From Clostridiales bacterium (GTDB lineage Bacteria > Bacillota > Clostridia > Lachnospirales > Lachnospiraceae), in the NCBI GenBank assembly GCA_015655075.1, contig JAATFT010000035.1, positions 1 through 64,000 of the forward strand: a stretch of 64,000 nucleotides of DNA, written 5' to 3'. Position 1 is the stretch's first letter. Each line of letters starts with the position of its first letter. The translations under genes and the position numbers were made by a program. Below, piece by piece: positions 5,149 to 46,655 of the stretch. The notes beneath the pieces were generated by a model. The model saw nothing but the letters and a program-made list of their open reading frames with translations, did no database searches and was not told where the DNA came from.

Positions 5149-6645
<1,497 letters not shown>

Positions 6646-6661
6646 GGGAGGTCAAAGTATT

Positions 6662-12048: not shown

Positions 12049-13386
12049 CTATTTCTTTTCTTTTCTGAGTTTTTTGGCATATTCAGAATTAAGTTTAGAT
12101 TCACGTCTGCACTTATCTTCCTTTATCCTGATTTGTTCTTCTCTGGCTGGCTGGTACATACTCCAGCGTTTTTCATAGTTTTCCCGGGCCGCTTTCATTT
12201 CCTGAGTCAATTTCGGCTTAGACGGTCTTCTTTCCGGCATAACTGGTACGACTGGAATTCTGTCTTCCACTGGAAGAATCGATAACTTCTTAACGGTAGG
12301 CAATTTCTGATACCAGTAAGCAGTCGAACTCCAGTCATCCGATAGATGATTGGCATGCCCATGTTCAATCGTGACCCTAAGGCTTTTTTCAATTCTTACC
12401 GGATCAGTGATATGGAAGCGGTAGGATACCTGAAATCCGTCTGAATCGCCTTCATGTACTATGGTTCCGAAGAAGGGATATGCATTTCTCTGCATTCCCC
12501 ATGCGTGATTAAAATAATCCTCCGTTCCGGTCCCATTAAGGCTCGGATACTCCTCTCCATCAATGAAGAACATATCATTACCTTCTCCCCACCAGCTTCC
12601 CTGGAAATGCTTTACTGTAAGATTACAGCCCACATAATGCCCCATACCTTCCGTATCCAGCACCACATAATTTCCTTTACCATCCAGGTTTGTAACTGTA
12701 TTTACTTCCGCAGAATTAACCTGCAGGTCCGGTCCCCAGCCATCGCACGGGTTCTGGCGATGCCAGCAGGAATGGAAATATGCCGTTTCGGCCGGAAGTT
12801 CTTCCTGATATAATTCAAAATCAATATTAAAATATAAAATAAACGGGACCTCATTTTCATTTATGATTTCTATTTTGGCCTTCTTATTAAAAGGCATTGG
12901 AAAATAACAGGAAACGGAACATGGTGCTCCGTAAGCTCCTGCCTCCTCTGGCTTTAGGGAGACATTAAAAGGAAGTGATGAGAAATTGCCCGGATAACTG
13001 TTGCCGATGCAGAAAAAGTCACCTAAAGGTGCCAGTACACTCGGTGTATCCTGATCATCCCAGGTAATCTTGACCAATGCTTTTCGATAATAAAACGGAT
13101 CATATGCATCCCATATGACACCAAGGGCCGGATGTATTTCCATTACCGGCGCTGAATTAGCCTGCATTGCCGGGTCGAGAATTCCCGGTTTTACAGCCCT
13201 GCGGCAGGAAGATGTCATCCAGATATGGTTAATGCATCCGGGTCCTTCCACTTCACCCAGGGTAATGCTTTCCCCTGCGGGAATTTCCCAGTAATCCTGA
13301 TTCATTCCCCTTTGATCCCAACTGGCGAATCTGCCGTTTCTAGCCCTTTTAACTTTTGTTAAACTTTCAAATAAACCTGATACCAT
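12049..13386 (-). CDS. DUF2961 / GH172 family protein (difructose dianhydride- or arabinofuranoside-type hydrolase)
   Basis: DUF2961 hallmarks: SWDQRGMNQDYWEIPAGESITLGEVEGPGCINHIWMT, LNGTGTEDYFNHAWG, YRFHITDPVRIEKSLRVTIEHGHAN. Confidence 0.88.
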   Translation of the reverse strand: MVSGLFESLTKVKRARNGRFASWDQRGMNQDYWEIPAGESITLGEVEGPGCINHIWMTSSCRRAVKPGILDPAMQANSAPVMEIHPALGVIWDAYDPFYYRKALVKITWDDQDTPSVLAPLGDFFCIGNSYPGNFSSLPFNVSLKPEEAGAYGAPCSVSCYFPMPFNKKAKIEIINENEVPFILYFNIDFELYQEELPAETAYFHSCWHRQNPCDGWGPDLQVNSAEVNTVTNLDGKGNYVVLDTEGMGHYVGCNLTVKHFQGSWWGEGNDMFFIDGEEYPSLNGTGTEDYFNHAWGMQRNAYPFFGTIVHEGDSDGFQVSYRFHITDPVRIEKSLRVTIEHGHANHLSDDWSSTAYWYQKLPTVKKLSILPVEDRIPVVPVMPERRPSKPKLTQEMKAARENYEKRWSMYQPAREEQIRIKEDKCRRESKLNSEYAKKLRKEKK

Positions 13387-13403: not shown

Positions 13404-13570
13404 CTAGTACAACGTTCTTAAATTAACTGAACCATTATGCTGGTCTAAATCTCCGATAGCACTGGTCCACAAGCCTCGGCGTAGTACCACTACGCCTGCG
13501 TTTGTGAACCAGCACTCTTGAAGATTTATCCTCAGCCTAATAGCCAGTTATTTAGAGAATGTTGTACTAG
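13404..13570. mobile_element. ~167-bp palindromic MITE-like element, termini CTAGTACAACRTTCT
   Basis: ctagtacaacgttcttaaattaactg...ccagttatttagagaatgttgtactag; core cggcgtagtaccactacgcctg. Confidence 0.8.
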
Positions 13571-14418
13571 TTCTCAATAATAACGGAACCTTTAAATAAT
13601 TTTATTTTATTTTCTGTTACAGCAGCAATTTTCTCTACCTGATACGGGATAATATCGGTCATACAATCTTTACCGTCTTCATATGCCTTCTTTACCGCTT
13701 GGGAGGCAGCAATATTAATGTCCGTAAAAATATTGACCTTGCTGATTCCACAGGCTATGGCTTTTCTGAAATCCTTGTCCGAAAGACCGCTGCCGCCATG
13801 CAGTACCAACGGAACATCAATTATGTTTCTTATGGCTTCAATCCTCTCAAAATCCAGCTTGGGTTTGAATTTATATACTCCATGCACCGTTCCAACCGCG
13901 ATTGCCAGCGCATCAATTCCGGTCCGGTCCGTATAATCCTTAGCCTGTTCCGGATCAGTATAGAAAAATGACAAGTTATCCGGCTGTTCGTTTCCTTCCG
14001 CACCTCCAACATGTCCCAACTCACCCTCCACGCTTGCCCCAAAGCTGTGCGCAATGTAAGTCAGTTCCTTTACCTTCTTAACATTATCCTCGTAGCTGTC
14101 CATGGAACAGTCATACATGACGGAAGAAAAGCCAAGCTTTAATGCCTCAATACATTTTTCAAAGGTTAAGCCATGGTCATAGTGAACAACAACCTTTACT
14201 TTCGATTTTCTTGCCATAGGAAGCAGAAAATAAGATAATTCCTCCAGTGGTCCATAAGGCAGCAGTACCTCCGCCGTACCGATAATTACGGGAGAACCGG
14301 TTCTTTCTGCTGCCGCCAATACCCCCCTTGCCATCTCAAGGTTGACAGTATTAAACAAACCAACTCCGTACCTTTGCCGCTTCGCAGGTAATAAAACATC
14401 ATTTAAATTTACCAACAT
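13567..14418 (-). CDS. Class II fructose-bisphosphate (ketose-bisphosphate) aldolase
   Basis: VVHYDHGLTFEKCIEALKLGFSSVMYDCSM, VEGELGHVGG, VLHGGSGLSDKDFRKAIACGISKVNIFTD. Confidence 0.93.
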   Translation of the reverse strand: MLVNLNDVLLPAKRQRYGVGLFNTVNLEMARGVLAAAERTGSPVIIGTAEVLLPYGPLEELSYFLLPMARKSKVKVVVHYDHGLTFEKCIEALKLGFSSVMYDCSMDSYEDNVKKVKELTYIAHSFGASVEGELGHVGGAEGNEQPDNLSFFYTDPEQAKDYTDRTGIDALAIAVGTVHGVYKFKPKLDFERIEAIRNIIDVPLVLHGGSGLSDKDFRKAIACGISKVNIFTDINIAASQAVKKAYEDGKDCMTDIIPYQVEKIAAVTENKIKLFKGSVIIEN

Positions 14419-14431
14419 AATTTTTATCCTC

Positions 14432-15577
14432 CTATTTTTTCGTCTTATCCCACCCGTTTTGGATTTTCCTCTCCAGTTCTTTCAACGTCTTTAATCCACT
14501 GAGCGCATCATATGCTTCCACACAGGATGCGCCGGCTGCAGATGACAAATGGATACATTCTTCAAAAGAATATCCCATCAGCATAGCAGTTAAAAATGCC
14601 GCGATACTGATATCGCCCGCACCGGTAGCAGATAATACTCTTTCCGGGATATAACTTCTTTCAAAACCTTCTCTGCCTGCCCAATCACTGTAGTCTAATT
14701 TTAAATTGTCTCCTGTTTTTTTCAATGCCTCCCTAGAAGATGTCCAATAGTACATCCCCGGTGCTCCGCATTTCAACAGAAGAACTTTTACACCCAGCCC
14801 GGCACATTTTTCTGCCAAAGGCCTGATATCTTTTTCAATATCTAAAATTCCTGTAATATCCATACCATCAGCCCTTGCAGTCCATTCCTTAAAACGCGTC
14901 CGGTCCAACATATAACATAACTCCTCAATACTGGGAACAAAAAAATCCACATATGGAAGTACCTTTGAAAGAATCTTTTCCCAATCCGCCCGGCCTGCCT
15001 CCGATTTGGCATCCACCGCTGCCATATCAAGGGAAGTGGCCACCTCCATCGATTTCGCTTTTTGAAAGAGTTTAACAAGCTCTGCACCATTGTCCTGATA
15101 CATGGATTTCATCAATGGCGGATATCCAAAATGTAATAGTGCTGCTGATTCTAAATCCTCTTCCGTAATATCCTCCGATGTAAAGGTATCATTTGCACCG
15201 GAATTGTGTAAAAAAATACGGTCAATTCCGGGAGGTGCAACCACAATGGTATAGGAGGTGGAGGTGTTGTCTGCAAGAATCAGCCCGTCATCCGCCCCAT
15301 ATTCCCTTAAAAGTTCCTGTACAATCCTTCCAAAGGCATCGTTTCCTGCCTTACCAATCAGTTTAACATCCATACCCAGTATTTTCATGGCAAGACCTGT
15401 ATTTGCCACAGCTCCTCCGGTATGTACATTTGCTTCCTTCATATTGATTAATTTGCCGGGAACCAGATAATTTCGTAAAGAGTCCACCTTTTGAGCCATA
15501 AAAACCGGGGTGATGTCCAGGCAGATATGTCCTGCTATGATGACTTTGTTATTTTTCATTTTTTCACATTCCTTCAC
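14432..15577 (-). CDS. PfkB-family carbohydrate kinase
   Basis: ANVHTGGAVANTGLAMKILGMDVKLIGKAGNDAFG and LSATGAGDISIAAFLTAML (GAGD signature). Confidence 0.92.
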   Translation of the reverse strand: MKECEKMKNNKVIIAGHICLDITPVFMAQKVDSLRNYLVPGKLINMKEANVHTGGAVANTGLAMKILGMDVKLIGKAGNDAFGRIVQELLREYGADDGLILADNTSTSYTIVVAPPGIDRIFLHNSGANDTFTSEDITEEDLESAALLHFGYPPLMKSMYQDNGAELVKLFQKAKSMEVATSLDMAAVDAKSEAGRADWEKILSKVLPYVDFFVPSIEELCYMLDRTRFKEWTARADGMDITGILDIEKDIRPLAEKCAGLGVKVLLLKCGAPGMYYWTSSREALKKTGDNLKLDYSDWAGREGFERSYIPERVLSATGAGDISIAAFLTAMLMGYSFEECIHLSSAAGASCVEAYDALSGLKTLKELERKIQNGWDKTKK

Positions 15578-15675: not shown

Positions 15676-16674
15676 ATGAGGAGGAAAACAATGGCAACAA
15701 TTAAGGATGTAGCAAAAAAAGCGGGGGTTTCAGTAACAACTGTATCACGTGTATTAAATCAAAAGGGGTATATTTCAAAAAATACCATTGAAGCAGTTTT
15801 TTCAGCCATGGATGAGTTGAATTATATTCCAAACCAGCTGGCAAGAAGCCTTTACAGTCAGAAAACTCATCTCATAGGATTACTGATTCCCGATATATCT
15901 CACCCATTTTTTGCCCAAATCACGCAGAAGCTTGAATCCCTGCTGTATCATGCAGGGTATAAACTCATGCTGTGCAGTACCGAAGCCGATGCCGATAAGG
16001 AGCATGAGCAGCTCTTAATGCTTCAGCAAAATCAGGTCGACGGAATTATTATCGGAACCCATATGCTGAAAAGGGCTGAATACGAAAAGGCAAAGCTGCC
16101 GATTGTTGCGCTTGATATCACACTTGGTGATTATATACCCACTATTTACTCGAATCATCAAAAAGGCGGCGAGCTTGCGGCAAGGATTTTTGTCGAAAAT
16201 AACTGCAAATTTGTGTTACAGCTAATTGGTGATATTACCATTCCGACACCTTCTTTGATTCGACATAAGGCCTTCTCCGAATATCTTCAAAAAAATAATA
16301 TCGGATGTATTAATTACTATATGAGCAAGGATGAGTTTAATTTTAGCAGTTACAGTACTATCATTGATTCATTACTGAACCAGTATTCGATGATTGACGG
16401 AATATTCTCAGTAGATTTGATTACCGTATATGCCTTACAGTGTGTTTCCTCCAAAGGTATCAGGGTACCGCAGGATTGCAAGATCGTCGGTTATGACGGG
16501 ACTTTCATTGCCGATACCGTCTATCCAAAATTGACACATATCGCACAGCCGCTGGATGAAATCGCCCAAACCCTGGTTGATACTCTGTTAAAAAAAATCG
16601 AAGGTGAGAATATCTTCAATGATATCTGCCTTGATAACATAAAGGTGGTAAAAGGCGGAACCACAATCGTATAG
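15676..16674 (+). CDS. LacI-family transcriptional regulator
   Basis: MATIKDVAKKAGVSVTTVSRVLNQKGYISKNT N-terminal HTH plus periplasmic-binding-like domain. Confidence 0.95.
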   Translation: MRRKTMATIKDVAKKAGVSVTTVSRVLNQKGYISKNTIEAVFSAMDELNYIPNQLARSLYSQKTHLIGLLIPDISHPFFAQITQKLESLLYHAGYKLMLCSTEADADKEHEQLLMLQQNQVDGIIIGTHMLKRAEYEKAKLPIVALDITLGDYIPTIYSNHQKGGELAARIFVENNCKFVLQLIGDITIPTPSLIRHKAFSEYLQKNNIGCINYYMSKDEFNFSSYSTIIDSLLNQYSMIDGIFSVDLITVYALQCVSSKGIRVPQDCKIVGYDGTFIADTVYPKLTHIAQPLDEIAQTLVDTLLKKIEGENIFNDICLDNIKVVKGGTTIV

Positions 16675-16708: not shown

Positions 16709-19453
16709 TCATACCGGTATAAAAGACAGTTCGTGGTTTCCGCCACTGCCTGCCTTGATCCGGTAACCGTCCGTTCCGGTAATTCCGGCATATTCGCCAT
16801 CCATATATATTAGAAATCTTGTTCCTGATGCTTGAAAAATTAAATCGTATATTCCTTCCCCAAACTCTAGATTCTTCACGGAAAATGCCCCGATTTCCTT
16901 ATGGATTGCAGGGGTAAAATACATTCCTTCCGTATCGTAATGGATGCCACATAGCCCATAATAAATAATGGATAGGAAACCGGCTGCATGCCATAGCTGT
17001 CCCGGCCATCTCCATGCCTTTTCGCTTTGGCAGTCTATCACTTCATAAAACGATTTGTTCATGATGCACTGCCGTATTTGTTGCATTAAAATTTTCAAGA
17101 TTAATTCTGCCTTCCCACACTCTGCCGCCGCAGAACAGATTCCAGCGTTATAAACTCCCCATACGGAATGGACAAAATGGTTTGTCTCCGGTCTATATGG
17201 AAACAAATCAATTCCTGCTTCTTTAAGATATTTTTCATCTAATACCCTTAAAATTGATATTCTTTTTGCTTTCTGACAAAGCCCGAACCTCGGCCAAAGA
17301 ACGGCCTCTGTTCCCGATGTCTCCCAATACCCCTTTATATAAGCTTCGCTTCCGAAAGGACCGCTCGTAAAATATCCCACCGTTTTCTTCCAATATCTGC
17401 TGCGGATACTTTCTCTCATCCTTTGACCAGCCTGCCTCCAAGCAGATACCATGGAAGGAACTTCTCCACAGATTGCTCCCATACCTGCCATTGCCTCGAA
17501 GGCATTCATGTAATAGATTTCAGTACTTAAAGCATATCCGCCGTTTTCAGGTTCAGCAAATGAATCATTCGAAGTTGATTGGGCCGCATGGACCAAATCC
17601 AGGGACGCATCATATCTATCCAGCATTTCATTGGCATGAATGCGTAAATAATGCCAGGTTTCATAGATTAAGGAACGATCATTTGTACACAGATAATAAT
17701 CCCAGATACCCACAGCTGCCATAGCAGGTCCATCCGTTCCATTATTAAACCCCTGTTTCGACGTATAGGTCAGAGTTCTTCTGGCCGTACTGCGGTCCAG
17801 CAGATTTCCGCATCTGAGTGCCGTCTGCGTGCTGTCCCTGAGCCAAACGCCAAAACCCTCTCCTTTTCCCTGAAACAGGCCGGCACTCCACAGGCCGGTT
17901 TGGGACGGCAATGCATACAGATCACCGCTGCAGGCATATATCACATCAAGTGCCAGTCTGGCAGCACAATCCAGTATGGGAAGCGATGTATACAGCACCG
18001 GATATTTTGAAGTGTCATAGGATGCCCTCCAGACATTCGTCCTGTTTACATGCCGGCTCATATCACCCCATTTTGTATTACGCCATTCAAATTCTTCTAC
18101 GATTCTGACCGGTGAGATAATGTCACCCGCTTTTGTAATGAAAGCATCCGGCCCGCCATATTTTAAATCCTTTATATGGTTATTATAAATAGTAAAATGT
18201 TTTCCCTGATAAAGGATTTGTCCGCTTTCATTTTCCGAATATATTGTTCTGTATTCTTCTTCTTTCAGCCAGATGCTTCTGAGACCGTACACCGTAAGAT
18301 GATTAATCGTTATTTTTCTGCCTTTAATAGCACTGTAAATATGAATACAGGGAAACTGCATTTCCTCCAGATGAAAATATGCCTCATCACTGAAAGGATT
18401 ACCGACTATGACTTTTGAAGCATCTTCCTCTGTTTTAATTAAAAACGTGACTTTTCCACCACAGTAGATTTCCATGCAGTTCTGGTCCGTAAAAATCTTT
18501 AATTCTATTCTGCCGTTATCCGTTCCAACCGGCATCCAGACTCCATTTTTATCTCGAATTGACTGGTCCTTCAAATACAGTACCCATCCGTTTATGTCCA
18601 GAATAATTTCATCTTCATGCTTAAGTTGTATACATAATTGGAACTCATAAGCCTCCGCAGTGATATCGTCTGCTGTACAGTCAGGTTCCAGGATTCTTAT
18701 ATCCGGCCAGACACCGGGTGCAACCCGGAATCTGAGTTTCTGATGAAAACTCGCTTCCTCAAGTTGATTAAAGGTTCGCTTCCAAATCCGAAGAGAATCC
18801 GTACCGTCAACCGGAACAAGTTTTCCTTCCTTACGGTATGGTAATGTTAGTTGATTGACAGTCCGGCCCTCTTTTGTTTTGTACTGGCTGGAAACGCCGA
18901 TTTCATACTGGGCTCCATCGATCACAAAGCTATGTAAGGAAGATATATTCCCATACCAGCTTTCCGGTTCCAAAAGATATCCCGATTCTGTTTTTTCTAT
19001 GGGTACCTCTTCTATCTGTGTCTTCATCATATTCCAGTGAATGAGATCACGGGAATTAATACGGATGGCAATCGGTGAAGAATCCAAACCGCCAAATAAG
19101 CATCTTAGTTTTAATTCAATTTCGCCGTTTTTTGCACCGACCCTGATCACGCCTTCAATAAGACCATGGTCGAAGGTTAAATGTATCCCCCTGTATAAAT
19201 CCGGCCGGAACAGCTTCAGCAGATACTCCGGTATAAGACGACGAGTATTTACTGCATGTAGAAACATAGACGGCTTATCTGAAACCGCTGCTGCCATATT
19301 TCCTTGATAGGGATATGTTGCCCAGCCGTCAATTTTATCCAGAGCCAGCCTGACTTCATAATCAGTCCATCGACCCCTGTCATTTCGAACATGGACTTTC
19401 TGTAAATCCGCATTTTCTTCTACCGGAATCAATAAAATATTTTTTTCCTTCAT
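16709..19453 (-). CDS. Large putative glycoside hydrolase: beta-sandwich N-half and (alpha/alpha)6-barrel-like C-half
   Basis: C-half WSAGLFQGKGEGFGVWLRDSTQTALRCGNLLD...DGPAMAAVGIWDYYLCTND resembles six-hairpin glycosidases; embedded in the GH32/GH172 locus. Confidence 0.6.
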   Translation of the reverse strand: MKEKNILLIPVEENADLQKVHVRNDRGRWTDYEVRLALDKIDGWATYPYQGNMAAAVSDKPSMFLHAVNTRRLIPEYLLKLFRPDLYRGIHLTFDHGLIEGVIRVGAKNGEIELKLRCLFGGLDSSPIAIRINSRDLIHWNMMKTQIEEVPIEKTESGYLLEPESWYGNISSLHSFVIDGAQYEIGVSSQYKTKEGRTVNQLTLPYRKEGKLVPVDGTDSLRIWKRTFNQLEEASFHQKLRFRVAPGVWPDIRILEPDCTADDITAEAYEFQLCIQLKHEDEIILDINGWVLYLKDQSIRDKNGVWMPVGTDNGRIELKIFTDQNCMEIYCGGKVTFLIKTEEDASKVIVGNPFSDEAYFHLEEMQFPCIHIYSAIKGRKITINHLTVYGLRSIWLKEEEYRTIYSENESGQILYQGKHFTIYNNHIKDLKYGGPDAFITKAGDIISPVRIVEEFEWRNTKWGDMSRHVNRTNVWRASYDTSKYPVLYTSLPILDCAARLALDVIYACSGDLYALPSQTGLWSAGLFQGKGEGFGVWLRDSTQTALRCGNLLDRSTARRTLTYTSKQGFNNGTDGPAMAAVGIWDYYLCTNDRSLIYETWHYLRIHANEMLDRYDASLDLVHAAQSTSNDSFAEPENGGYALSTEIYYMNAFEAMAGMGAICGEVPSMVSAWRQAGQRMRESIRSRYWKKTVGYFTSGPFGSEAYIKGYWETSGTEAVLWPRFGLCQKAKRISILRVLDEKYLKEAGIDLFPYRPETNHFVHSVWGVYNAGICSAAAECGKAELILKILMQQIRQCIMNKSFYEVIDCQSEKAWRWPGQLWHAAGFLSIIYYGLCGIHYDTEGMYFTPAIHKEIGAFSVKNLEFGEGIYDLIFQASGTRFLIYMDGEYAGITGTDGYRIKAGSGGNHELSFIPV

Positions 19454-19462: not shown

Positions 19463-20857
19463 TCAGCTCTTTTCTCTGGAAATTCTCAGATTTAAAACCT
19501 GTAAACGTCCGTTGCAAACAAACAGGCTCAAATCCTGGCCTGGCTTTTCGTACATCCTGGTATTCAGCGCGACACCGTTTACATAAAGAGTTGCAATCGT
19601 ATCATCCACAATAAGCTGTATGTGATAATTTTCCTCCGGCTTAAGAAGAATAGGCCTTTCCAGGCCGATATTCATTATCGAAGGCCATTCCATATTGGGC
19701 TTTTTCTCAAATACATACTTATTCTCCAAAACATAAAATGAAAACTGGTAAAATTTACCTTCCTCTTCATTACCCATAAAACTGAGACCAAAAGTCCTTG
19801 TTCCCTCAGAAAATTTAAAATCACCTTCAAGTGAGAAAAAATCCGTACTGTCTCTGCAGCAGATTTGTCTTGTAATTCCGTCCGTTCTCTCGATCACCGT
19901 CTGCCCAAGGTATTTTCCTTCACCGAAGGCATTCCAGACCGTATCAGGAACTTTCACACCCAGGGTTCCATCCTTTCTTTGGAAAATTTCATGAGCCACA
20001 AAGGTTCCTCCCCAGATGAAATTACTGTGATCATCTTCCTCTGCCCTTGTCGGCACCCATCCGAACAGTATTCTTTGTCCGTTCATGCAAAAAGTCCTTC
20101 CCGCATAATATGCGCGGCCGTCAAAGGCATCATCAAAGGGTGCCGTCCAGGGTCCATACAGAGTTTTACCCATACGGTAAACCATTTTGCATTTGTCGCT
20201 GTATTCTGTCGTTATCAGATACCACCAGTCTCCAATCTGAAATAAATCTGGCATTTCATGCATGGTATAAAGATCCGGAGCCCAGAAATCACCTTTAAAT
20301 ACCCAGTCTCCAAAATTTTCCGAAGTAAAATAGACCGTCCTTCCGGTTAATCTGTTTTTATTTCCTGTTAATCGCGCTCCTAAAATAAGGACATATACCT
20401 TATTGTCTTCATCATATACAACAAATGGGTCTCTCCAATCGGTTTCATCATATCCCTTCTGGGGGAATAATTTTAGCGCTTCGCCTCTCTTTTCCCAATG
20501 GATCAGATCTTTACTGACTGCTTCCATCAGAACCTGAGAGGGTTTTCCATATTGGGGATATTCACGGTTATAACCTGTATAAAATGCGTGATACATTCCC
20601 TGAACCTCACAGATACTGCCGGCGAATATAAACTGGTCCTGTGCATCCGGAGCGCCGACAGGAATAACCGTATCCATATCCTTATAGCTTACAAAGTCCT
20701 TTGTAACTGCCAAATCCCATCCAAACGGTTCACAATCCGGTAACGGTTCGGGATTTCTCGTATCCCTCTGATGGAAAAGATAAAACTCACCGTCTTTACC
20801 ATAAGGCATACAATCTCCAAACCAGAAGCCTTCCGGCTGATAATATAACTGATTCAT
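19463..20857 (-). CDS. Divergent GH32-like glycosidase
   Basis: WFGDCMPYGKDGEFYLFHQRD replaces WMNDPNG; TDWRDPFVV retained; EMPDLFQIGDWWYL replaces ECPD. Confidence 0.8.
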   Translation of the reverse strand: MNQLYYQPEGFWFGDCMPYGKDGEFYLFHQRDTRNPEPLPDCEPFGWDLAVTKDFVSYKDMDTVIPVGAPDAQDQFIFAGSICEVQGMYHAFYTGYNREYPQYGKPSQVLMEAVSKDLIHWEKRGEALKLFPQKGYDETDWRDPFVVYDEDNKVYVLILGARLTGNKNRLTGRTVYFTSENFGDWVFKGDFWAPDLYTMHEMPDLFQIGDWWYLITTEYSDKCKMVYRMGKTLYGPWTAPFDDAFDGRAYYAGRTFCMNGQRILFGWVPTRAEEDDHSNFIWGGTFVAHEIFQRKDGTLGVKVPDTVWNAFGEGKYLGQTVIERTDGITRQICCRDSTDFFSLEGDFKFSEGTRTFGLSFMGNEEEGKFYQFSFYVLENKYVFEKKPNMEWPSIMNIGLERPILLKPEENYHIQLIVDDTIATLYVNGVALNTRMYEKPGQDLSLFVCNGRLQVLNLRISREKS

Positions 20858-20886
20858 TGTAATCTCCTTTCCCTTCCCTCAAATAT

Positions 20887-21780
20887 TCAACTGACAGCTG
20901 TTACTTCACAGCCCGTTTCCATAAAGAGCTCTTTGTACCGTAGCATCTTTTCCCAGGAAGGTGTTATAAAATCTTTAAATTCATATCCCAAATTTTCATA
21001 CTTTGTCTTGCCAAGCCTGTGATAGGATAATAGTTCTATTTTTTTCACATGCCTGCGGTTTTTAAGAAAATCCGCAAGATAAGGCAACTGGTCTGCATTC
21101 ATATCCTCCACGACCGGGATCCGCACAAATATATCCGCCTCCATTTCCAGCTTGTCAAAATTATCAAGGATTATCCTGTTAGATGCTCCCGTGCATCGGA
21201 TATGTACCTCTTCTTCCCATGCTTTTAAATCATAAAGGAATAAATCCGTGTAAGGAATTATTCTTTCAAAAGCCCTCCACGAAACCAGACCGGCCGTATC
21301 TACCGCTGTATGGATTCCTTCGGAATGTAATTCACGAAGTAATTCTTCTGCCGCATCCGGCTGAAGCAGGGGCTCTCCGCCTGATAAGGTAACTCCGCCT
21401 CCGGAGATCTCATACATTTTTCTATCCTTAAGAACTTCCGTTAAAATCTCAGATATGGGGACCATTTTCCCTACCTTCTCCAAAGCTTTGAAGTAACACC
21501 TGCCTACACAGGAAAAATCATATCTGCATTTCTCCCTGTCAAGCTTAAAGTGACCATCCCGCAGAGAACAGGCCTTGGCTTTGCAGGTATCAACACATTT
21601 GCCACAGCCGGTACATAGCTGTTGCTCTACCTTTAGCTCAAAAGCGCGGGAAATTGATTCCGGATTATGGCACCATTTGCAATTTAGGCTACAGCCTTTA
21701 AAAAATACAGTAGTTCTTACTCCCGGCCCGTCATGCATGGATATTCGCTGAATATTAAAAATAATTGGTTTCATCTTCAT
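20887..21780 (-). CDS. Glycyl radical enzyme activating enzyme (radical SAM, PflA-like)
   Basis: FFKGCSLNCKWCHNPES (CxxxCxxC), ferredoxin-like CTGCGKCVDTCKAKAC, GGGVTLSGGEPLLQP; 4-bp overlap with the GRE gene. Confidence 0.95.
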   Translation of the reverse strand: MKMKPIIFNIQRISMHDGPGVRTTVFFKGCSLNCKWCHNPESISRAFELKVEQQLCTGCGKCVDTCKAKACSLRDGHFKLDREKCRYDFSCVGRCYFKALEKVGKMVPISEILTEVLKDRKMYEISGGGVTLSGGEPLLQPDAAEELLRELHSEGIHTAVDTAGLVSWRAFERIIPYTDLFLYDLKAWEEEVHIRCTGASNRIILDNFDKLEMEADIFVRIPVVEDMNADQLPYLADFLKNRRHVKKIELLSYHRLGKTKYENLGYEFKDFITPSWEKMLRYKELFMETGCEVTAVS

Positions 21781-24023
21781 CTCGCATACCGAAGTGCCCT
21801 GTTTATCACTTCATTCTGCATCTCCTTATCCAGAGTAACAAATTTCGCTGAATATCCGCATACTCTGACCACCAGATTCTGATGCCTTTCGGGATGTATC
21901 TGTGCGTCCTTTAAGCTTTCACTGTCTACAACATCAAAATCAAAGGTATTTCCGCCGTTTGCAATAAAGTATTTAATGATATCTGCAAAAATGCGGCTAT
22001 TCCTATCTGCCAGCGATAGAGGCATCTCAAAATACATCACCGCTGATTGTGGAAACTTGCTCAAGTCCATCAGCTCCATTGAATGTATCAGCTCCATGAC
22101 ATTTGTTTCTACAAACTCGGAAGGATTCATCCCTCTTGATAAGGTCATTCCGGCCTTCCTGCCGTCCGGAGTTGCACCCGTACCTGCCTTCAGCCATTCA
22201 TATCCATAGAAGGACCATAAGGAAGCTTCGAATAAACCTCCCCGGGTATTTCGCATATAAGAAGTGACATCAGCCATGTCACTGCATATTCCTGCCGCAA
22301 ATTCATTCATTTCCTGATTGTCACTGCCGTACTTGTCTATCTTGTTTTTCAGGTAATTACAGTATAATTCCCCGTCTTCACACGAAAAGTCCGTTTCCAG
22401 AAGTTCCTTCATCTTATCCCAGGTGATGAACTTTTCCTCGAACACAGCTTTTTTTATCGCATACATTGAATCAATAAAAGTTCCGATTCCACTTAAAGCA
22501 TATCCACTGTCATTGTAAACCGCACCGCCCTGAGATACATCTAATCCTCTTTCAATACACCCGTCTATTGTAGACGAAAAAAACGGACACGGATTAAAAG
22601 TCTTCCATCTCAATTCAAAACGGTTAAAATGCCAGGTTATTGCATTCACAATCAAAGACAGGTTATGAAATACACGCTTATAAAAGCTGTCAAAATCCGG
22701 ACAATGTTCCAGTGAAACAGGTACGATATTTTCCTGTTCAAAAAAGCACTCTTTTTCAGGAAATATCATCATCAGCAGGTATTTGGAAGGGTTAAGGTAG
22801 CAGTAGGCCCTGGAGTTTACTTCTGTATTTGCCAGCACAGGTTCCTGACAGCCGCCGGAAACATATAACCTGCAGTCCTCCGTTTTTTTGCCCATTTTCT
22901 CCTGTGCGGCGATAATGACTTCATCATTGAAGACAGATAGTACATTCGTTCCCGATGCAGCCAGCTCTGAGATTAAATCATAATATTCCTGCGGTGCCTG
23001 TCTTGAAAAGCGCGCCTGCAGCTTAGGGTTTACAAATCGATATTTAATGTAGCAATTTATGATTGCTTTTGTAATCTCGTTAAAAACCACTCTGCCCCGA
23101 GCGTCACAGCCGCCGATATTAATTGTAGTATTGGTTCCATAAGGAGTATTGCTTAAATCCCATCTTGCATCCGTCAATGACACAAACCAGCAGATTAGAT
23201 CATCCGCCTCTTCCTTTGTAATTATCCCGTTTTTGATATCCCTGTCATAATATTCTTCCAGAATTCTGTCTACATGGCCAACAACAGCAAAACCCATTGC
23301 TTCTAGATTATTTCCAAGCTGATGGACATACCATATTGTATTTAAAGCTTCATAAAAAGTCTGAGGCGGATTGGCAGGGCATCTCTTTGCCGAATCCCTG
23401 ATTCTTTCCAACCGTTTTCTTATCACCGGATATTTTTCGGTTTCCAGCATCAATTCAGCCTTTTGAGAAAAGCGTTCTGTCAATTTTATTAACTCTTTCT
23501 GTGTTTCAATAATACTGGAAAGAAAAATTTTCTTTTCAGTATCATCCGTATGCATCAGTGCGTTTTCTGCTTTTGACATAATCCCATAAAAACCGTATTT
23601 AATAATATTTTCAGCGCCAAGAGCATGATGAGCTGAATCCACATACATAGTTGAATCAATGATATCCTGGTCCATATACGGATTAACCCATTTTTGGAAC
23701 TCCTGCAAAAATCCGGTCCTGTCACTTCTCATCAGCCAGCTGTCAAGTCCAGGCAAAGGTGGGAATGCCGATCCAACCGAGTTTCTTGGACGCCCCATTG
23801 CCACTTCAAAATAGAAGGGACAATGTCTAAATAATTTAACTTCACATTTTTCAGCTATCAAATGATAGACCCAAGTCTTTTTTATAAATGGAGATGCATC
23901 CGGCTGCATCTCATTCATGTGGTTTAATTCTGCTTCCTGGCTTGAAACATCAACCGGATAGGTTGAATAGAATACATCTGTTTCTTTCAGGAAATCATCT
24001 AATTCCGCTGTAAATTGTGACAT
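21777..24023 (-). CDS. Glycyl radical enzyme, eliminase/dehydratase-type (PFL2-like), substrate unknown
   Basis: C-terminal VRVCGYSAKF glycyl radical motif; active site SGGCQEPV (C-x-E-P) rather than the PFL Cys-Cys. Confidence 0.93.
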   Translation of the reverse strand: MSQFTAELDDFLKETDVFYSTYPVDVSSQEAELNHMNEMQPDASPFIKKTWVYHLIAEKCEVKLFRHCPFYFEVAMGRPRNSVGSAFPPLPGLDSWLMRSDRTGFLQEFQKWVNPYMDQDIIDSTMYVDSAHHALGAENIIKYGFYGIMSKAENALMHTDDTEKKIFLSSIIETQKELIKLTERFSQKAELMLETEKYPVIRKRLERIRDSAKRCPANPPQTFYEALNTIWYVHQLGNNLEAMGFAVVGHVDRILEEYYDRDIKNGIITKEEADDLICWFVSLTDARWDLSNTPYGTNTTINIGGCDARGRVVFNEITKAIINCYIKYRFVNPKLQARFSRQAPQEYYDLISELAASGTNVLSVFNDEVIIAAQEKMGKKTEDCRLYVSGGCQEPVLANTEVNSRAYCYLNPSKYLLMMIFPEKECFFEQENIVPVSLEHCPDFDSFYKRVFHNLSLIVNAITWHFNRFELRWKTFNPCPFFSSTIDGCIERGLDVSQGGAVYNDSGYALSGIGTFIDSMYAIKKAVFEEKFITWDKMKELLETDFSCEDGELYCNYLKNKIDKYGSDNQEMNEFAAGICSDMADVTSYMRNTRGGLFEASLWSFYGYEWLKAGTGATPDGRKAGMTLSRGMNPSEFVETNVMELIHSMELMDLSKFPQSAVMYFEMPLSLADRNSRIFADIIKYFIANGGNTFDFDVVDSESLKDAQIHPERHQNLVVRVCGYSAKFVTLDKEMQNEVINRALRYAR

Positions 24024-24061
24024 TAACCATAACCTTCTTTCTTTTGTAAATACCTGAAACC

Positions 24062-25090
24062 TTAAAATGTAAGCGCAACTTTCATTCCCTCTCTCGATTT
24101 TACCAATTGAATTCCTTCCATAAATTTTTCAACAGGAAGTCTGTGTGATACAAAATCCTTAAGATCTATCTTTCCTTCCATTATAGAGCTTATAACCCGC
24201 TCATGTACGGTTCTTTCTCTTAGGGCAATCGGCCATTGTACGGAATGAATATTAAAATTGTACGGAGCTATATCCCAATCAATCGCATCTCCCGTATGCA
24301 TTCCTATGCCATATAACGCTATTTTCCCTGTTTCCTTTGTTATCTGAAGACCCTGATTAATGATTTTGGCGCTTCCTACGCAATCTATAAGCAAGTCCGC
24401 CCCTTCAGGCATGATATCTCTTACTGCGTCGATTATTTTTACATCCTTGGTATTTATGGCAGAATCCGCGCCCAGTTTTCTTGCCGTATCCAATCGTGAC
24501 TGATGATGTCCTCCCATAATTATTTTAGAAGCACCAAGCAATTTGGAGTTGATTACCATGGCCAGTCCCACCGGACCGCAGCCGACGATAACCACATTCA
24601 TTCCAGGCTGTATGCCGACTCTGTCCAAAGCACTGGAGATTTCCTTAAGCGTTATAATCATAGTTCCGTCAACCGGATCTATCTCATGCGGAATGACCTG
24701 TTGGGTGCACCGTCCTTCTTCCGCACTTACTCCGTCTTCGATTCTTGCCTGATAATCATCAACCAGTCCAAATTCAGCAAATCCGCCCCAAAGACTTCTA
24801 TATTGTTCCGTGTCGTTTAATGTAGTTCTTAATACCCGGTCTCCAACTTTATAATTCCGTACCTTGCTTCCAATCTGTATTACTTCACCAACTGATTCAT
24901 GTCCAAGAACCGCAGGGTAAGTTGAAAATCCCCGCAGCTTTCCATCAATCAGTTTTAAATCCGTTCCATTACACAATGCACAGGCAATCGTTTTTGTCAG
25001 GCATTGATATTCATCTATTTCAGGCATAGGAATTTCATATTGCAGATCTATTTTTCCACCGCCATAGACAACTAAACCTTTCATAAGCAT
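24062..25090 (-). CDS. Zinc-type medium-chain alcohol/polyol dehydrogenase
   Basis: CALCNGTDLKLIDG, PAVLGHESVGEV, VIVGCGPVGLAMVINSKLLGASKI Rossmann motif. Confidence 0.9.
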   Translation of the reverse strand: MLMKGLVVYGGGKIDLQYEIPMPEIDEYQCLTKTIACALCNGTDLKLIDGKLRGFSTYPAVLGHESVGEVIQIGSKVRNYKVGDRVLRTTLNDTEQYRSLWGGFAEFGLVDDYQARIEDGVSAEEGRCTQQVIPHEIDPVDGTMIITLKEISSALDRVGIQPGMNVVIVGCGPVGLAMVINSKLLGASKIIMGGHHQSRLDTARKLGADSAINTKDVKIIDAVRDIMPEGADLLIDCVGSAKIINQGLQITKETGKIALYGIGMHTGDAIDWDIAPYNFNIHSVQWPIALRERTVHERVISSIMEGKIDLKDFVSHRLPVEKFMEGIQLVKSREGMKVALTF

Positions 25091-25102
25091 TCTCCTCTCT
25101 TG

Positions 25103-25981
25103 TCATCCTTTTACTGCACCTGCTGTCATGCCCTCCACAATGTATTTCTGAAAGAAGCCGAAGAAAATAATCTGAGGTGTCATTATAATAATACTTCCCG
25201 CAATAATTCCGCCGTAATCAATGGTATACTGACTTTTAAATAAGGACAAGCCAAGGGAAATAGTAGCCTTGGCATGAGCAGAAATCAGGGTTACAGCCAA
25301 GGGAAATTCATTCCATACATAAATAACATTAAAAACAAATACCGTAATCAATACGGGTTTAATAATCGGGGCAATTACCTGAAAACATACCTTCCAGATA
25401 CTGCAGCCGTCAATGACCGCGGCTTCTTCCACTTCAGTGGGAAAACCTCTTAAAAATCCGGTCAGAAGCAGAGTATTAAAGGATATCGATGTTGCTATAT
25501 AAGGTAAAACCATTGACATAAAGTTTCCATTCAGGTGAAGCATTATCGTTATCCGGTAGATTGGAAATAGTAGTACATAAATAGGTACAGCCAATCCGAC
25601 CAGTAAAAACGAATATAAATTAGCCTGGAGCTTTGGATGTTTATAAGGGATTCTTGTCAAAGCCACTGAACTTAGGAAGGTTATCACCATCTCTATTACC
25701 ATGGTTACTGTCATAATAACAATGGTATTTTTAAACAATAAAAGAGGATTTAAGGTTTTAAAAGCATTAATATAGTTAGTCAGATTAAGTTTATCCGGGA
25801 AGCTCAAAGGATTTATTATAATGTCGGAATTATTCTTTGTGGATAACAACAGTACAAAAAGGAACGGAATCAACATAATAAAGGTAAATATGGTAATTCC
25901 AATGTAAGTTAATATCCTTGCTCTCTTTTTATGCTGCTTTTTCATCTTTTTATCCATATTATTTGAGCCCTCCCGCTTCAT
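25103..25981 (-). CDS. Carbohydrate ABC transporter permease (MalG-like)
   Basis: EEAAVIDGCSIWKVCFQVIAPIIKP EAA loop; six-TM pattern. Confidence 0.93.
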   Translation of the reverse strand: MKREGSNNMDKKMKKQHKKRARILTYIGITIFTFIMLIPFLFVLLLSTKNNSDIIINPLSFPDKLNLTNYINAFKTLNPLLLFKNTIVIMTVTMVIEMVITFLSSVALTRIPYKHPKLQANLYSFLLVGLAVPIYVLLFPIYRITIMLHLNGNFMSMVLPYIATSISFNTLLLTGFLRGFPTEVEEAAVIDGCSIWKVCFQVIAPIIKPVLITVFVFNVIYVWNEFPLAVTLISAHAKATISLGLSLFKSQYTIDYGGIIAGSIIIMTPQIIFFGFFQKYIVEGMTAGAVKG

Positions 25982-26849
25982 CGTTTTTCCTGCGCAGTAT
26001 AAACAAATAGATTAAAGTGAAGGACATTGTGACGATACAGCTAAACACCGCAATCGACATACCATATCCATACCTGCTTGAAATAAATGTCGTATTATAC
26101 ATGTAGGTGGTCATAACTTCAGACATATGATTCGGGCTTCCGTTCGTAAGCTGATATACTAGTTCGAATATTTTGAAACAGCCGGTTATAATCAGGATAA
26201 TATTGATTGCAAATGTTTCTTTCAGCATGGGAACCGTGATATATCTGAAGGTCTGCCAGCCGTTCGCACCGTCTATCTGGCAGGACTCAAACAATTCATT
26301 TGGTATTGTTTTCAGACCAGCCAGGAAAATCGTTGCAATATATCCAACGTTCTGCCAGCTATAAATAACGCCAACACAATACGGCGTCAGTACAAGTCCT
26401 CCTATCCATGTCTGTTTCCAGGCAACTCTTCCCATTAAGTCCAGGGCGCTGTTAATTAAGCCCATCTCCGGGTCAAAAATATAGCCCCAAATCAAGCCCA
26501 CTACAATTGGAGCAATTATATTCGGAAGGAAATTTAATGCTTTATATACATTCGAACCCTTAAAGCTTCTATTTAATACAAGTGCCAATATCAAAGAAGC
26601 CGGCAGGAGCACCAATATGCTCATCAGTAATACAATTGCCGTATTTTTCACAGAAACTAAAAAATAACGGTCACCAAACATCTTAATATAATTTTTTATG
26701 CCAATAAATTCAGGTGTCACAATCCCTTTAAAATTCGTCAGGCTATAATATACAGCTACAAAAAGAGGAATAACAATATATAAACAGTAAATAAGAATTG
26801 TCGGTCCCAGCATAGCTATAAAGTTACGTTTTCTGTTAAACCAATGCAT
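25959..26849 (-). CDS. Carbohydrate ABC transporter permease (MalF/UgpA-like)
   Basis: FESCQIDGANGWQTFRYITVPMLKE EAA loop. Confidence 0.93.
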   Translation of the reverse strand: MHWFNRKRNFIAMLGPTILIYCLYIVIPLFVAVYYSLTNFKGIVTPEFIGIKNYIKMFGDRYFLVSVKNTAIVLLMSILVLLPASLILALVLNRSFKGSNVYKALNFLPNIIAPIVVGLIWGYIFDPEMGLINSALDLMGRVAWKQTWIGGLVLTPYCVGVIYSWQNVGYIATIFLAGLKTIPNELFESCQIDGANGWQTFRYITVPMLKETFAINIILIITGCFKIFELVYQLTNGSPNHMSEVMTTYMYNTTFISSRYGYGMSIAVFSCIVTMSFTLIYLFILRRKNDEAGGLK

Positions 26850-26959
26850 ACCATTCCTCCAAAGCTACAACACATTTTGGTAACAATGCACCGTTATACA
26901 TAAAACGATGCATTGTTAAGTATTGTTCAATTAATTAAACTAATTATTCATATGACAGA

Positions 26960-28327
26960 TTATTTACCAAGATCATCGTCAACTGCCGCCTGTACTGTAT
27001 TCATTGCTTCATCCGATGTACATACGCCGTTTATTACACCGTAAATCGAATCATATAGCGCATTGCCGAAAGCTTCCGTACTTACATTATCAGCCTGTGT
27101 CTTAATACCCTTATAGCCAAGATTGATCTGATCTATTACCGAAGCAAATGCAGGATGCTCGGATACAAACGAATCATCAATTGTTCCGCTATAGTTAGTC
27201 GGAGGTGTAACCAGATTATCTATCATGATTTTAGCTCCGTCATCGCTGTAATAGAATTTGAAAAAGTCAAGAATTACAGCAAGTTTGGCAGGATCTTCAG
27301 CGGCTTTTGCTGAAATCGCAAGCGGCGCATGCGCATAATTGGAACAAATCTGCTGATTTCCTACACCATTATCAAATGATACACCCCATGTAAACCCAAT
27401 GGCATTAGGATTTGAAAAATTTTCTTCAAGGTATTTTGATTCCCAGGAGCCTGAATCAAACATGGCAGCTTTTCCGGAACAAAACATTTCTTTTGCATCA
27501 TAATAGGTTGATGTAGCTACATTACCCGGAAATGCTCCCAGATCTCTCAATTCGCCAAGAGAATCATAGAATTTACGGAAATCATCGTTATTAAAGCTTT
27601 CGTTTCCGGCAAGTATCCCGTCAATTTTATCAAAATAGCCAAAGTGACAGAGCTCAGCCATCAATGCCCATACAGAGTAAGCATCCTGTGCTCCCTGTGC
27701 TATTGTAATAATACCATTTTCTGAAAATACTTTAGTACAATTAACCAGGTCATCATAGGTAGACGGAACCTCAAGATTATATTGGTCAAATAAATCCTTA
27801 TTATACCAGAAACCGGTTACCAACGCCTGATACGGAAGACCGTAGATGCGGCCGTCGACATCCACTGCATTAACCATATTATCATTCATAATAGATGTCA
27901 GATTATTATCCGCTATAAAATCATCGAGACAATACAGTAATCCCTGGGAAGCCATATCTTTATCGGATGCTAACAGGTTAAAGAATACATCAGGTAAAGT
28001 ATCTGCCTGCGCATTCATTTTCATTTTGTTATAATGTTCTGTCGTCTCTTCACCTGTAAGGTTAATAGTCACATTAGGATGAGCTTCCATATACGCCTGA
28101 CAGATCGCATAAATAGCAGGCTCCTGTTCCTCGACATTAGCTACATGCATGGAAAGATCAAATTCCACCGGTGCATCGGAATCAGTCGTTTTCTCAGTAG
28201 TTGCCGTTCCACCGGTGGTCTCTTCTGATGTGCCATTTTTTGAGGTGTCCGAACTGCTGCCGCAGCCTGTAAGCATTGTAACCGTCATAACCAAACACAA
28301 TATTACAGATAATACTTTCTTTTTCAT
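26960..28327 (-). CDS. Carbohydrate ABC transporter substrate-binding lipoprotein
   Basis: Lipobox MTVTMLTGCGSS; SBP_bac_1-like fold motifs; upstream of two permeases. Confidence 0.93.
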   Translation of the reverse strand: MKKKVLSVILCLVMTVTMLTGCGSSSDTSKNGTSEETTGGTATTEKTTDSDAPVEFDLSMHVANVEEQEPAIYAICQAYMEAHPNVTINLTGEETTEHYNKMKMNAQADTLPDVFFNLLASDKDMASQGLLYCLDDFIADNNLTSIMNDNMVNAVDVDGRIYGLPYQALVTGFWYNKDLFDQYNLEVPSTYDDLVNCTKVFSENGIITIAQGAQDAYSVWALMAELCHFGYFDKIDGILAGNESFNNDDFRKFYDSLGELRDLGAFPGNVATSTYYDAKEMFCSGKAAMFDSGSWESKYLEENFSNPNAIGFTWGVSFDNGVGNQQICSNYAHAPLAISAKAAEDPAKLAVILDFFKFYYSDDGAKIMIDNLVTPPTNYSGTIDDSFVSEHPAFASVIDQINLGYKGIKTQADNVSTEAFGNALYDSIYGVINGVCTSDEAMNTVQAAVDDDLGK

Positions 28328-28422: not shown

Positions 28423-28437
28423 TGGAAACGGTTGACA
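28423..28437. promoter_or_regulatory. Candidate LacI-type operator (weak) TGGAAACGGTTGACA
   Basis: Resembles TGNAANCGNTTNCA apart from a one-base offset; near a TATAAT on the minus strand upstream of the importer operon. Confidence 0.35.
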
Positions 28438-28595
28438 TGCAATATTTTTTTATATAATTTGTATATTTTATGTATTCTGTATATTTTCTCCCTTATATTT
28501 CTGCCTAATAAATAGCATTTATTGTGCATTTTGCTAATGCCATTAAACCGATTTAAACATGTTCTCTTTTTTAAATCTAAATACAATATATAATT

Positions 28596-28750: not shown

Positions 28751-29755
28751 ATGATGGAAAAACATATAACAATTAATGACATCGCCAGAATGGCCAATGT
28801 ATCCCGTTCTACTGTTTCACGTATATTAAACGGGAATGTTAATGTAAGCGAAAAAAAAAGAAATCTTATTATGCAGGTCATCCATGATAATAACTTTATC
28901 CCCAATGACTTAGCGCGTAATCTTGTTAAGGGTACAAACAATACACTCGGTGTCTTTGTCGGTGATATAGCCAACCAATATTATTCAGAAGTATTAAAAG
29001 GCATTGAAAAAGCCGTTTCCAATAACAACTATATTCCTATCACATGTTTTATTAACGGAAGCGAAAAAGAAGAATATTACATTGAAGAGATGATTAAACG
29101 CCGCTGTTCAGGTATTATTATTGTTAGTACAAGTATCCATAATATAAAGTTGGTAGAACGCCTTTCTAATTTTTCAAAAATTGTTTCAATTCAATCCGAT
29201 GTTCCTTCACTCTGTGAAATCAACTCTTCTGACGAATATGGCAGCTATCAGATTACAAACCACCTCATCCAACTGGGGCATAAGAAGATAGCCTATGTAC
29301 AGGTCAATAATAATCACAGTGTTCTTATCAACAGAAGGAAAGGCTTTGAGAAAGCCTGTTCAGACGCCGGAATTGCAATTCCTTCCAATTATATTATTTA
29401 CACAGATAATGAGGCTTTGCTTTGCCAGTCAGTTCAGGAACTTATGCATTGTAACACCCCGCCCACAGCTATTTGCTGCTGTAATGATTATATCGCTTGT
29501 ATCATTAATCAAAAATTAAAGGCAATGCAAATACAAATTCCAGAAGATGTTTCACTGACAGGTTACGATAATCTTCCTATTTCTTCAATAATGGAACCAA
29601 AATTAACAACAATATCTCAGCCAATCAGGGAAATGGGTAAAACAGCTGTTGAAACATTGATAAAATTGATTCAATCACCAAATACGACACGTTTTTTGTC
29701 CATAACTTTCCCTATTGAGATTGTTATTCGTGATTCAGTTGCCCCTCCGAAATAA
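28751..29755 (+). CDS. LacI-family transcriptional regulator
   Basis: ITINDIARMANVSRSTVSRILNGNVNVSEKKR HTH; divergent to the ABC importer operon. Confidence 0.95.
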   Translation: MMEKHITINDIARMANVSRSTVSRILNGNVNVSEKKRNLIMQVIHDNNFIPNDLARNLVKGTNNTLGVFVGDIANQYYSEVLKGIEKAVSNNNYIPITCFINGSEKEEYYIEEMIKRRCSGIIIVSTSIHNIKLVERLSNFSKIVSIQSDVPSLCEINSSDEYGSYQITNHLIQLGHKKIAYVQVNNNHSVLINRRKGFEKACSDAGIAIPSNYIIYTDNEALLCQSVQELMHCNTPPTAICCCNDYIACIINQKLKAMQIQIPEDVSLTGYDNLPISSIMEPKLTTISQPIREMGKTAVETLIKLIQSPNTTRFLSITFPIEIVIRDSVAPPK

Positions 29756-44511: not shown

Positions 44512-44557
44512 ATATGATAATTGACTTTGTGCTGAACAGCAATTATATTTATAAAGG

Positions 44558-45334: not shown

Positions 45335-45392
45335 ATACTTTTAAGAACATAAACAAGAAAGTAACAATAATAATCTTAATACAGCTTAAGAA

Positions 45393-45430
45393 CAAAAAGC
45401 AATTCTATTAGTAGAGTTGCTTTTTTAATA
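45393..45430 (+). terminator. Intrinsic terminator after the second deoR
   Basis: aaaaagcaattctattagtagagttgctttttta. Confidence 0.65.
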
Positions 45431-45628
45431 TTTAAAAACTCTAAATAATACTATTTTAAAATCAATATAATCACATGTTTTGTGCAATTTTCACAAAATT
45501 ATATATAATTTTTTTACATTAAAACATCAAAAAAGTATTGTTAAAAACCAAAAGAGTATGTATAATGTTTGTATATCAATCAAAAGTTAAATACCATAAA
45601 TTGCATTTCAATCGAAAGGAACCAAGAT

Positions 45629-46642: not shown

Positions 46643-46655
46643 GGAGGAAAGATCC

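Follow-up and report, generated by a model that had tools for sequence, protein, structure and literature searches.

The window, a 64-kb stretch of contig JAATFT010000035.1 (positions 1 to 64,000) from a Clostridiales bacterium of the family Lachnospiraceae, an anaerobe of gut type, contains a minus-strand operon (28327-16709) that includes a glycyl radical enzyme (GRE). In order, the operon encodes the solute-binding protein (SBP) and two permeases of an ATP-binding cassette (ABC) importer, a zinc-dependent dehydrogenase (hereafter DH) of the medium-chain dehydrogenase/reductase (MDR) type, the GRE, its activating radical S-adenosylmethionine (SAM) enzyme, a glycosidase resembling glycoside hydrolase (GH) family 32, and a six-hairpin glycosidase-like protein (hereafter 6HG). 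We hold it fairly probable that this is a LacI-controlled anaerobic sugar operon, whose GRE is of an uncharacterized clade and removes an oxygen substituent from a probably fructose-linked sugar or polyol. Since an uncharacterized GRE is paired with its own dehydrogenase and with fructoside-type glycosidases in a sugar-uptake operon, the operon suggests an undescribed radical step in the breakdown of an unusual fructose-containing sugar. GREs carry out some of the hardest reactions of gut anaerobes, such as the conversion of choline to trimethylamine (TMA), the dehydration of hydroxyproline, and the ring-opening of anhydroglucitol, and new GRE clades have mostly turned out to act on new substrates. 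If confirmed, the operon would add a radical step to the breakdown of fructoside or caramel-type sugars by Lachnospiraceae.

Both GRE domains (PF02901 and PF01228) score above their cut-offs, and the glycine radical motif VRVCGYSAKF and the active-site motif GGCQEPV were found in the protein, as the initial annotation had claimed. Residues H132, C392, and E394 align with His164, Cys433, and Glu435 of glycerol dehydratase (GDH), so that the catalytic His/Cys/Glu set is kept and the enzyme is of the C-x-E dehydratase/eliminase type. The activase carries the CX3CX2C motif (CSLNCKWC) and additional cluster cysteines, and exceeds the TIGR02494 cut-off. On the other hand, the GRE falls far below the NCBIfam equivalog cut-offs for trans-4-hydroxyproline dehydratase (257.6 against 1100 bits), choline TMA-lyase (236.3 against 1050), sulfopropanediol dehydratase (232.0 against 1000), indoleacetate decarboxylase (170.7 against 1100), and hydroxyphenylacetate decarboxylase (145.8 against 1150). 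The best solved matches, glycerol and propanediol/diol dehydratases, reach 232-236 bits over about 620 residues, and GDH, diol dehydratase, HypD, and CutC are roughly equidistant from the GRE (347-367 bits). Assignment to a characterized family was ruled out by these low equivalog scores and nearly equidistant matches.

Among 145 related genomes, the closest relatives of the GRE are 39-42% identical over the full length, and the next matches are only about 30% identical, over part of the length. An alignment of four clade members, scanned against the GTDB genome collection, revealed a rare clade with the signature GGCQE and identities of 37-62%. This clade (hereafter clade A), mostly GGCQE, includes Lachnospiraceae, among them Diplocloster agilis and D. 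modestus, which are cultured and carry two such operons. It also takes in other Clostridia, a Treponema metagenome-assembled genome (MAG) in which the motif reads GGCHE, and a MAG from a lake. The same scan detected a second, more distant GRE clade in Victivallales, Kiritimatiellae, and Clostridia. In a FastTree phylogeny, in which the solved GREs are represented by the aligned parts from the structure search, the two clades form a GGCxE superclade with support of 1.0, which leaves out glycerol dehydratase, HypD, CutC, PflD, and YbiW. Propanediol dehydratase and isethionate lyase, which are absent from this tree, score 352 and 248 bits against the clade profile; most clade-A members score above 900 bits, and the outlying members L046 and L051 score 774 and 660 bits. 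Tight clustering with a characterized enzyme, which for a substrate without a sugar link would have undermined the initial annotation, was looked for in tree and scores and found with none of the characterized GREs compared. By sequence, the GRE is a member of an uncharacterized family.

Other GREs were observed in passing. The second clade (L053-L064 and L066), also uncharacterized, shows GGCWE, GGCDE, GGCQET, and variants, and some of its members adjoin genes for AraC regulators, a short-chain dehydrogenase, GH127, or GH4. The genome of the window itself encodes another GRE and activase beside genes that, by eye, look like those of a mannose-type phosphotransferase system (PTS) (L039 3988-7188, C24), a setting that resembles that of the anhydrohexitol-phosphate GREs. 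A further GRE homologue match in this genome (L040 5923-8160, C27) crosses two in-frame stops (TGA and TAA) and is probably truncated or decayed.

The active site of clade A differs from those of the known diol dehydratases. The positions of Ser282 and Asp447 (GDH numbering), the diol-binding residues of glycerol dehydratase, are altered: no clade-A sequence has Ser in the column of Ser282, the column of Asp447 holds Ala, and that of His446 holds Arg405. Residues H133, H250, R253, K334, N360, Q393, R405, R630, Y664, and D695, among others, are invariant across 14 clade-A sequences and occur in none of five reference GREs. Since known C-x-E GREs catalyze such chemistry, the enzyme is predicted to perform a radical C-O elimination on a substrate unlike the known ones. 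These residues also bear on whether the GRE could be a divergent glycerol/diol dehydratase that disposes of the C3 products of a ketose-1-phosphate split, with glyceraldehyde passing to glycerol. While the best solved matches are glycerol and propanediol dehydratases and a ketose-1-phosphate aldolase would supply the glyceraldehyde, none of the clade members aligned retains an equivalent of Ser282 or Asp447, the GRE is no nearer to GDH and diol dehydratase than to HypD and CutC, and some GRE operons have no aldolase nearby. We regard this explanation as improbable.

The neighbors of the GRE are conserved across clade A, for which we compared 17 loci (the window, L041-L052, L059, L171, L172, and L173); neighborhood open reading frames (ORFs) in these loci were called mechanically, and several loci are MAG fragments. 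An importer and an activase accompany the GRE in 15 of the 17. Since 14 loci besides the window have the same combination of importer, GRE, and activase, the arrangement is not due to chance. Thirteen of the 15, the window included, also contain the DH, and the two exceptions (L042 and L043) end within the activase gene at the contig end. The DH orthologues are 39-62% identical to the window DH, which has the catalytic Cys and GHE motifs and lacks the structural-zinc cysteines. The nearest fully syntenic locus is L172 (GRE, DH, SBP, and aldolase each 62%, GH32 61%, and 6HG 37%). Hence the initial proposal of an eliminase-type C-x-E GRE within a sugar importer/GH operon is borne out by profiles, alignment, and gene order, and its link between dehydrogenase and GRE holds in 13 clade-A loci.

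Adjacent genes of the minus-strand run lie -23 to +110 bp apart, with the reading frames of GRE and activase sharing 4 bp, and none of the intergenic gaps contains a terminator-like site. A LacI gene on the plus strand separates the operon from a second minus-strand group comprising PfkB kinase, class II aldolase, GH172, and GH32 genes (Table 1). Profile matches support the position and family proposed for every ORF named in the initial annotation, with two adjustments to its account of the operon. Its range (19463-28327) captures the run but cuts off the 6HG gene, and the "large GH" it assigned to that gene is present, with a Bac_rhamnosid6H match just below the cut-off (24.2 against 24.5 bits).

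The link to fructosides comes from the glycosidases. The GH32-like protein of the operon scores 91.7 bits against a cut-off of 22.1, has the Asp nucleophile, the RDP motif, and the Glu acid/base, and is closest among solved chains to the GH32 enzymes 6r3r, 8a9y, and 7znr. GH32-type genes lie near the GRE in the window, L041, L047, L048/L049, L059, L171, and L172, and 6HG genes in the window, L041, L047, L059, L172, and L173. AlphaFold models of 6HG reached a mean predicted local distance difference test score of 32.6 (single-sequence) or 41.8 (four-sequence). In genome G408 of the same family, a GRE-free operon (L152 4638-13799) contains GH172, an SBP, two permeases, 6HG, LacI, and a second GH172 gene; since 6HG lies between the two GH172 genes there, it is tied to the GH172 sugar class. 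As an observation in its own right, this operon suggests 6HG as a new partner in the use of difructose-anhydride-type sugars. A GRE upstream of this operon was considered and rejected: the activase there adjoins a proline-racemase-like gene (by eye), and both GREs of the genome lie elsewhere.

The window GH172 aligns over residues 2-441 with αFFase1 (7v1v) at 892.9 bits, compared with a self-score of 1073, and GH172 enzymes of the αFFase1 type act on difructose dianhydride I (PMC8605356). The neighboring GH172 and GH32 genes were considered as parts of the GRE module and rejected, as they adjoin the GRE in no other locus and L172 lacks both. No GH172 was found in genome G027, and only distant homologues in G029. 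Of the expected co-occurrence of GRE, GH172, and GH32, the recurrence of GH32-type genes stood, as did that of 6HG; the window alone has a GH172 next to the GRE. The GH172-GH32 pair is an adjacent module, separate from the conserved GRE module.

The kinase and aldolase have a similarly loose association with the GRE. The aldolase passes the ketose-bisphosphate aldolase (cbbA subfamily) cut-off (TIGR00167, 253.4 against 215.6 bits), and its best solved match is YdjI (6ofu). Both proteins lack the C-terminal DPR segment of GatY/KbaY, which presumably binds the C6 phosphate, and the window enzyme is probably a ketose-1-phosphate aldolase. PfkB orthologues (49-61%) adjoin the GRE in L041, L052, and L171, and aldolase orthologues (62-65%) in L041, L052, and L172; thus both are present in L041 and L052, PfkB alone in L171, and the aldolase alone in L172. 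In the Diplocloster and G610 genomes, the pair lies away from the GRE. The PfkB gene is present in 50 of 397 genomes of the family, namely 6 of 7 GRE carriers and 44 of 390 others (Fisher P 2e-5; by genus P 2e-4, with kinship not otherwise corrected). Exclusivity to the GRE was ruled out by the 44 GRE-free genomes, where PfkB often lies by a xylose-isomerase-like gene; of 16 inspected loci without a GRE or unlinked to one, 8 had such a gene near PfkB. Since PfkB occurs in GRE-free genomes and beside these isomerase-like genes, the pair seems to be a general Lachnospiraceae ketose module that, from the YdjI homology, probably acts via a ketose 1-phosphate. The ketose branch envisaged by the initial annotation is supported by the YdjI likeness and the isomerase neighbor, but not as a GRE-specific one. 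Separately, L188 and L196 represent a recurrent, uncharacterized, GRE-free Lachnospiraceae cassette in which PfkB, joined in L188 by the aldolase, is found with an AraC regulator, a Gfo/Idh/MocA dehydrogenase, an IolE-like TIM barrel, and a xylose-isomerase-like protein.

Could the kinase and aldolase act directly on a GRE product? The GRE might abstract hydrogen at C6 of fructofuranose or a fructofuranoside and expel the ring oxygen at C5 to give 2-deoxy-5-keto-D-glucose, with collapse of the C2 hemiketal releasing any aglycone; DH would reduce the aldehyde to 5-deoxyfructose, and PfkB and the aldolase would yield dihydroxyacetone phosphate (DHAP) and 3-hydroxypropanal. The proposed product is the aldehyde form of 2-deoxy-5-keto-gluconate, the substrate of IolC (5-dehydro-2-deoxygluconokinase). 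Among curated families, the window PfkB comes closest to IolC, though it remains far below the IolC cut-off (TIGR04382, 78.7 against 300 bits). A YdjI-like aldolase without the DPR segment would fit this route, and GRE ring opening has a precedent described in a review (PMC12441222). However, other genomes carry this kinase and aldolase alongside an isomerase but no GRE, the gain over ordinary fructose glycolysis would be small, and the proposal derives from chemical inference, so we consider it unlikely. More generally, a GRE acting as a radical fructosidase or ring-opener would expel the ring oxygen of fructofuranose or a fructofuranoside to turn fructan-derived sugar into a 2-deoxy-5-keto-hexose, from which DH, PfkB, and the aldolase would make DHAP and a C3 product. 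This form, to which we likewise give little credence, would mean non-hydrolytic fructoside breakage, with fructose as its own electron sink.

The initial annotation had assigned the two branches to different parts of the substrate: the GHs would split a fructosyl-polyol or fructosyl-anhydro-sugar, fructose would enter the PfkB/aldolase branch, and the GRE would dehydrate or open the polyol or anhydro part to a carbonyl that DH reduces. The resemblance of PfkB/aldolase to an independent ketose module, the persistence of DH-GRE linkage where no PfkB or aldolase gene is nearby, and the GRE opening of anhydrohexitol phosphates described in the same review (PMC12441222) are consistent with this division. 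Conversely, no GH gene is present in L052, where PfkB/aldolase is linked to importer, DH, and GRE, no sugar-alcohol-specific gene was seen, and the GRE falls outside the PflD/YbiW groups; the division remains a tentative option. The likelihoods given here do not sum to one, as each of these explanations is either a special case of the general one or a rival to it.

In that general explanation, the GRE most likely carries out an undescribed radical dehydration or ring-opening on an unphosphorylated, probably fructose-linked sugar or polyol. In the pathway that we infer, including its reaction type, DH direction, and step order, the ABC importer would take up an unphosphorylated sugar or small glycoside, probably containing fructofuranose, which the GH32-like enzyme and 6HG would trim. 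The activated GRE may then expel water, or a ring or ether alkoxide, adjacent to a hydroxyl-bearing carbon in the sugar or polyol moiety and so form a deoxy carbonyl product, and DH would balance or complete this step. Ketose units would be phosphorylated by PfkB to ketose 1-phosphate and cleaved by the YdjI-like aldolase to DHAP and an aldehyde; in the GRE operons, the ketose may come from the DH/GRE step or from GH-released fructose.

Several observations weigh against this explanation. The importer/DH loci L044, L045, and L050 have no recognized GH gene within reach, so the fructoside link is not universal. Since these three clade-A loci combine importer, DH, and GRE without one, the GHs may merely feed the pathway, and the GRE target may be a small imported sugar. 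No importer was found with the GRE in the available DNA of L046 and L051 (the L051 contig is short). PfkB/aldolase occurs mostly in genomes without a GRE and hence need not act on the GRE product. Finally, the window operon retains only half of the conserved operator.

This operator belongs to a regulator and operator family shared among the GRE loci. Orthologues (49-57%) of the LacI protein encoded downstream of the operon occur in nine other loci, making it GRE-linked in 10 with the window. Operators with the core AACCGGTT precede the SBP gene in seven loci. The palindrome ATGNNAACCGGTTNNCAT lies upstream of SBP in L042, L043, L047, L048, L049, and L059, in pairs 54-55 bp apart except in L043, where the contig starts, and a related site lies in the SBP/GH32 promoter region of L172. 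A complete LacI operator was sought in the window and rejected, as the full palindrome is not present and the half-site ATGTCAACCG alone was found. The 64 kb contain just two copies of this 10-mer, compared with about 0.12 expected in random sequence. The second copy, within ATAACAAGCGGTTGACAT (62110-62127), lies upstream of an SBP-permease-permease-LacI operon (L162 2370-8671) whose last gene, identified by eye from the translation, is sucrose-phosphorylase-like, and the DNA-binding helix of the LacI of that operon is similar to that of the GRE-linked LacI.

Table 1 Features of the GRE operon and the adjacent genes in the window.
Feature	Position	Strand	Evidence
Putative operator half-site ATGTCAACCG	28429-28438	-	Upstream of SBP; left half of ATGNNAACCGGTTNNCAT
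Second LacI-family regulator, divergent from operon	28751-29755	+	46% orthologue precedes GRE operon in L173
ABC importer SBP, operon gene 1	26960-28327	-	SBP_bac_1, 99.3 bits; 62% orthologue at equivalent position in L172
ABC permease 1	25959-26849	-	BPD_transp_1; L172 orthologue 70%
ABC permease 2	25103-25981	-	BPD_transp_1; L172 orthologue 66%
Zn-dependent MDR dehydrogenase (DH), GRE partner	24062-25090	-	ADH_zinc_N and ADH_N
GRE, GGCQE clade	21777-24023	-	PF02901, 337.5 bits; PF01228, 52.0 bits
GRE-activating radical SAM enzyme	20887-21780	-	TIGR02494, 325.7 bits, over cut-off
GH32-like glycosidase, D/RDP/E motifs	19463-20857	-	Glyco_hydro_32N, 91.7 bits
6HG, six-hairpin glycosidase-like, final operon gene	16709-19453	-	Weak Bac_rhamnosid6H, 24.2 bits (cut-off 24.5)
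LacI-family regulator	15676-16674	+	49-57% identity to LacI genes adjoining GRE in other loci
PfkB sugar kinase	14432-15577	-	PfkB, 100.5 bits
Class II aldolase, YdjI-like	13567-14418	-	F_bP_aldolase, 298.9 bits
GH172/DUF2961, difructose dianhydride I hydrolase type	12049-13386	-	892.9 bits to αFFase1 7v1v
GH32 beta-fructofuranosidase, ScrB family	10556-12037	-	TIGR01322, 371.8 bits, over cut-off

Among known systems, glycerol dehydratase (1R8W) and diol dehydratase (5I2A) share the fold family and the retained Cys, Glu, and His with the window GRE. They are distant, however, with IGCVE in place of GGCQE, Ser282/Asp447 residues that the window enzyme lacks, and a different gene context. The closest likeness in proposed role is that of E. 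coli YbiW and PflD, which open the ring of 1,5-anhydrohexitol 6-phosphates by C-O cleavage, as the review describes (PMC12441222); like the enzyme proposed here, they are sugar-directed GREs, and the mechanism class thus has a precedent. The two differ from the window GRE in their separate tree groups, PTS import, and phosphorylated substrates, and their genes in E. coli K-12 adjoin no MDR dehydrogenase or GH gene. By analogy, the window GRE might open an imported, unphosphorylated 1,5-anhydro-sugar to a 1-deoxyketose. The YbiW/PflD precedent (PMC12441222) and the delivery of unphosphorylated sugar by ABC import speak for this, but the GRE lies in a separate supported superclade and not within the YbiW or PflD groups, a 1-deoxyketose cannot take the C1 phosphate required for DHAP as aldolase product, and the GH32-type enzymes would be left unexplained. 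We consider such a substrate improbable.

Bifidobacterium dentium has a stand-alone difructose dianhydride I operon with LacI, GH32, GH172, and an ABC importer (PMC8605356). The window resembles it in an αFFase1-orthologous GH172 adjoining GH32, whereas the operon as described has no GRE, dehydrogenase, PfkB, or aldolase. The Blautia difructose dianhydride III cluster (GH91, GH32, ABC, and in some a sugar kinase; PMC11538131) is likewise a Lachnospiraceae system that imports a cyclic fructose disaccharide and hydrolyzes it with GH32, but it has no GRE, and the text of that paper mentions no radical enzyme. The E. coli ydj cluster matches the window kinase, aldolase, and dehydrogenase with YdjH (PfkB), YdjI (class II aldolase), and the zinc dehydrogenases YdjJ and YdjL; it has no GRE, and identities are 38% for the aldolase, 23% for the kinase, and 25-27% for DH. 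A GRE in fructan or difructose-anhydride catabolism was not found in the open-licence literature searched, in line with the initial view that no fructan pathway with a GRE step is known to have been described, although a sugar-ring-opening GRE was already on record in YbiW/PflD (PMC12441222). The clade, partners, and sugar context of the window GRE are without precedent in the open-licence literature searched.

Two further gene groups in the window lie apart from the operon. Positions 43708-49057 encode a DeoR regulator, a PdxA-like dehydrogenase, an SBD_N/NBD_C sugar-acid kinase, and a KdgT permease, just preceded by triosephosphate isomerase and RpiB-like genes, and resemble a four-carbon acid sugar cluster. 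Positions 5179-8476 contain a GH1 beta-glucosidase gene followed by a beta-glucoside-type PTS EIIBCA gene.

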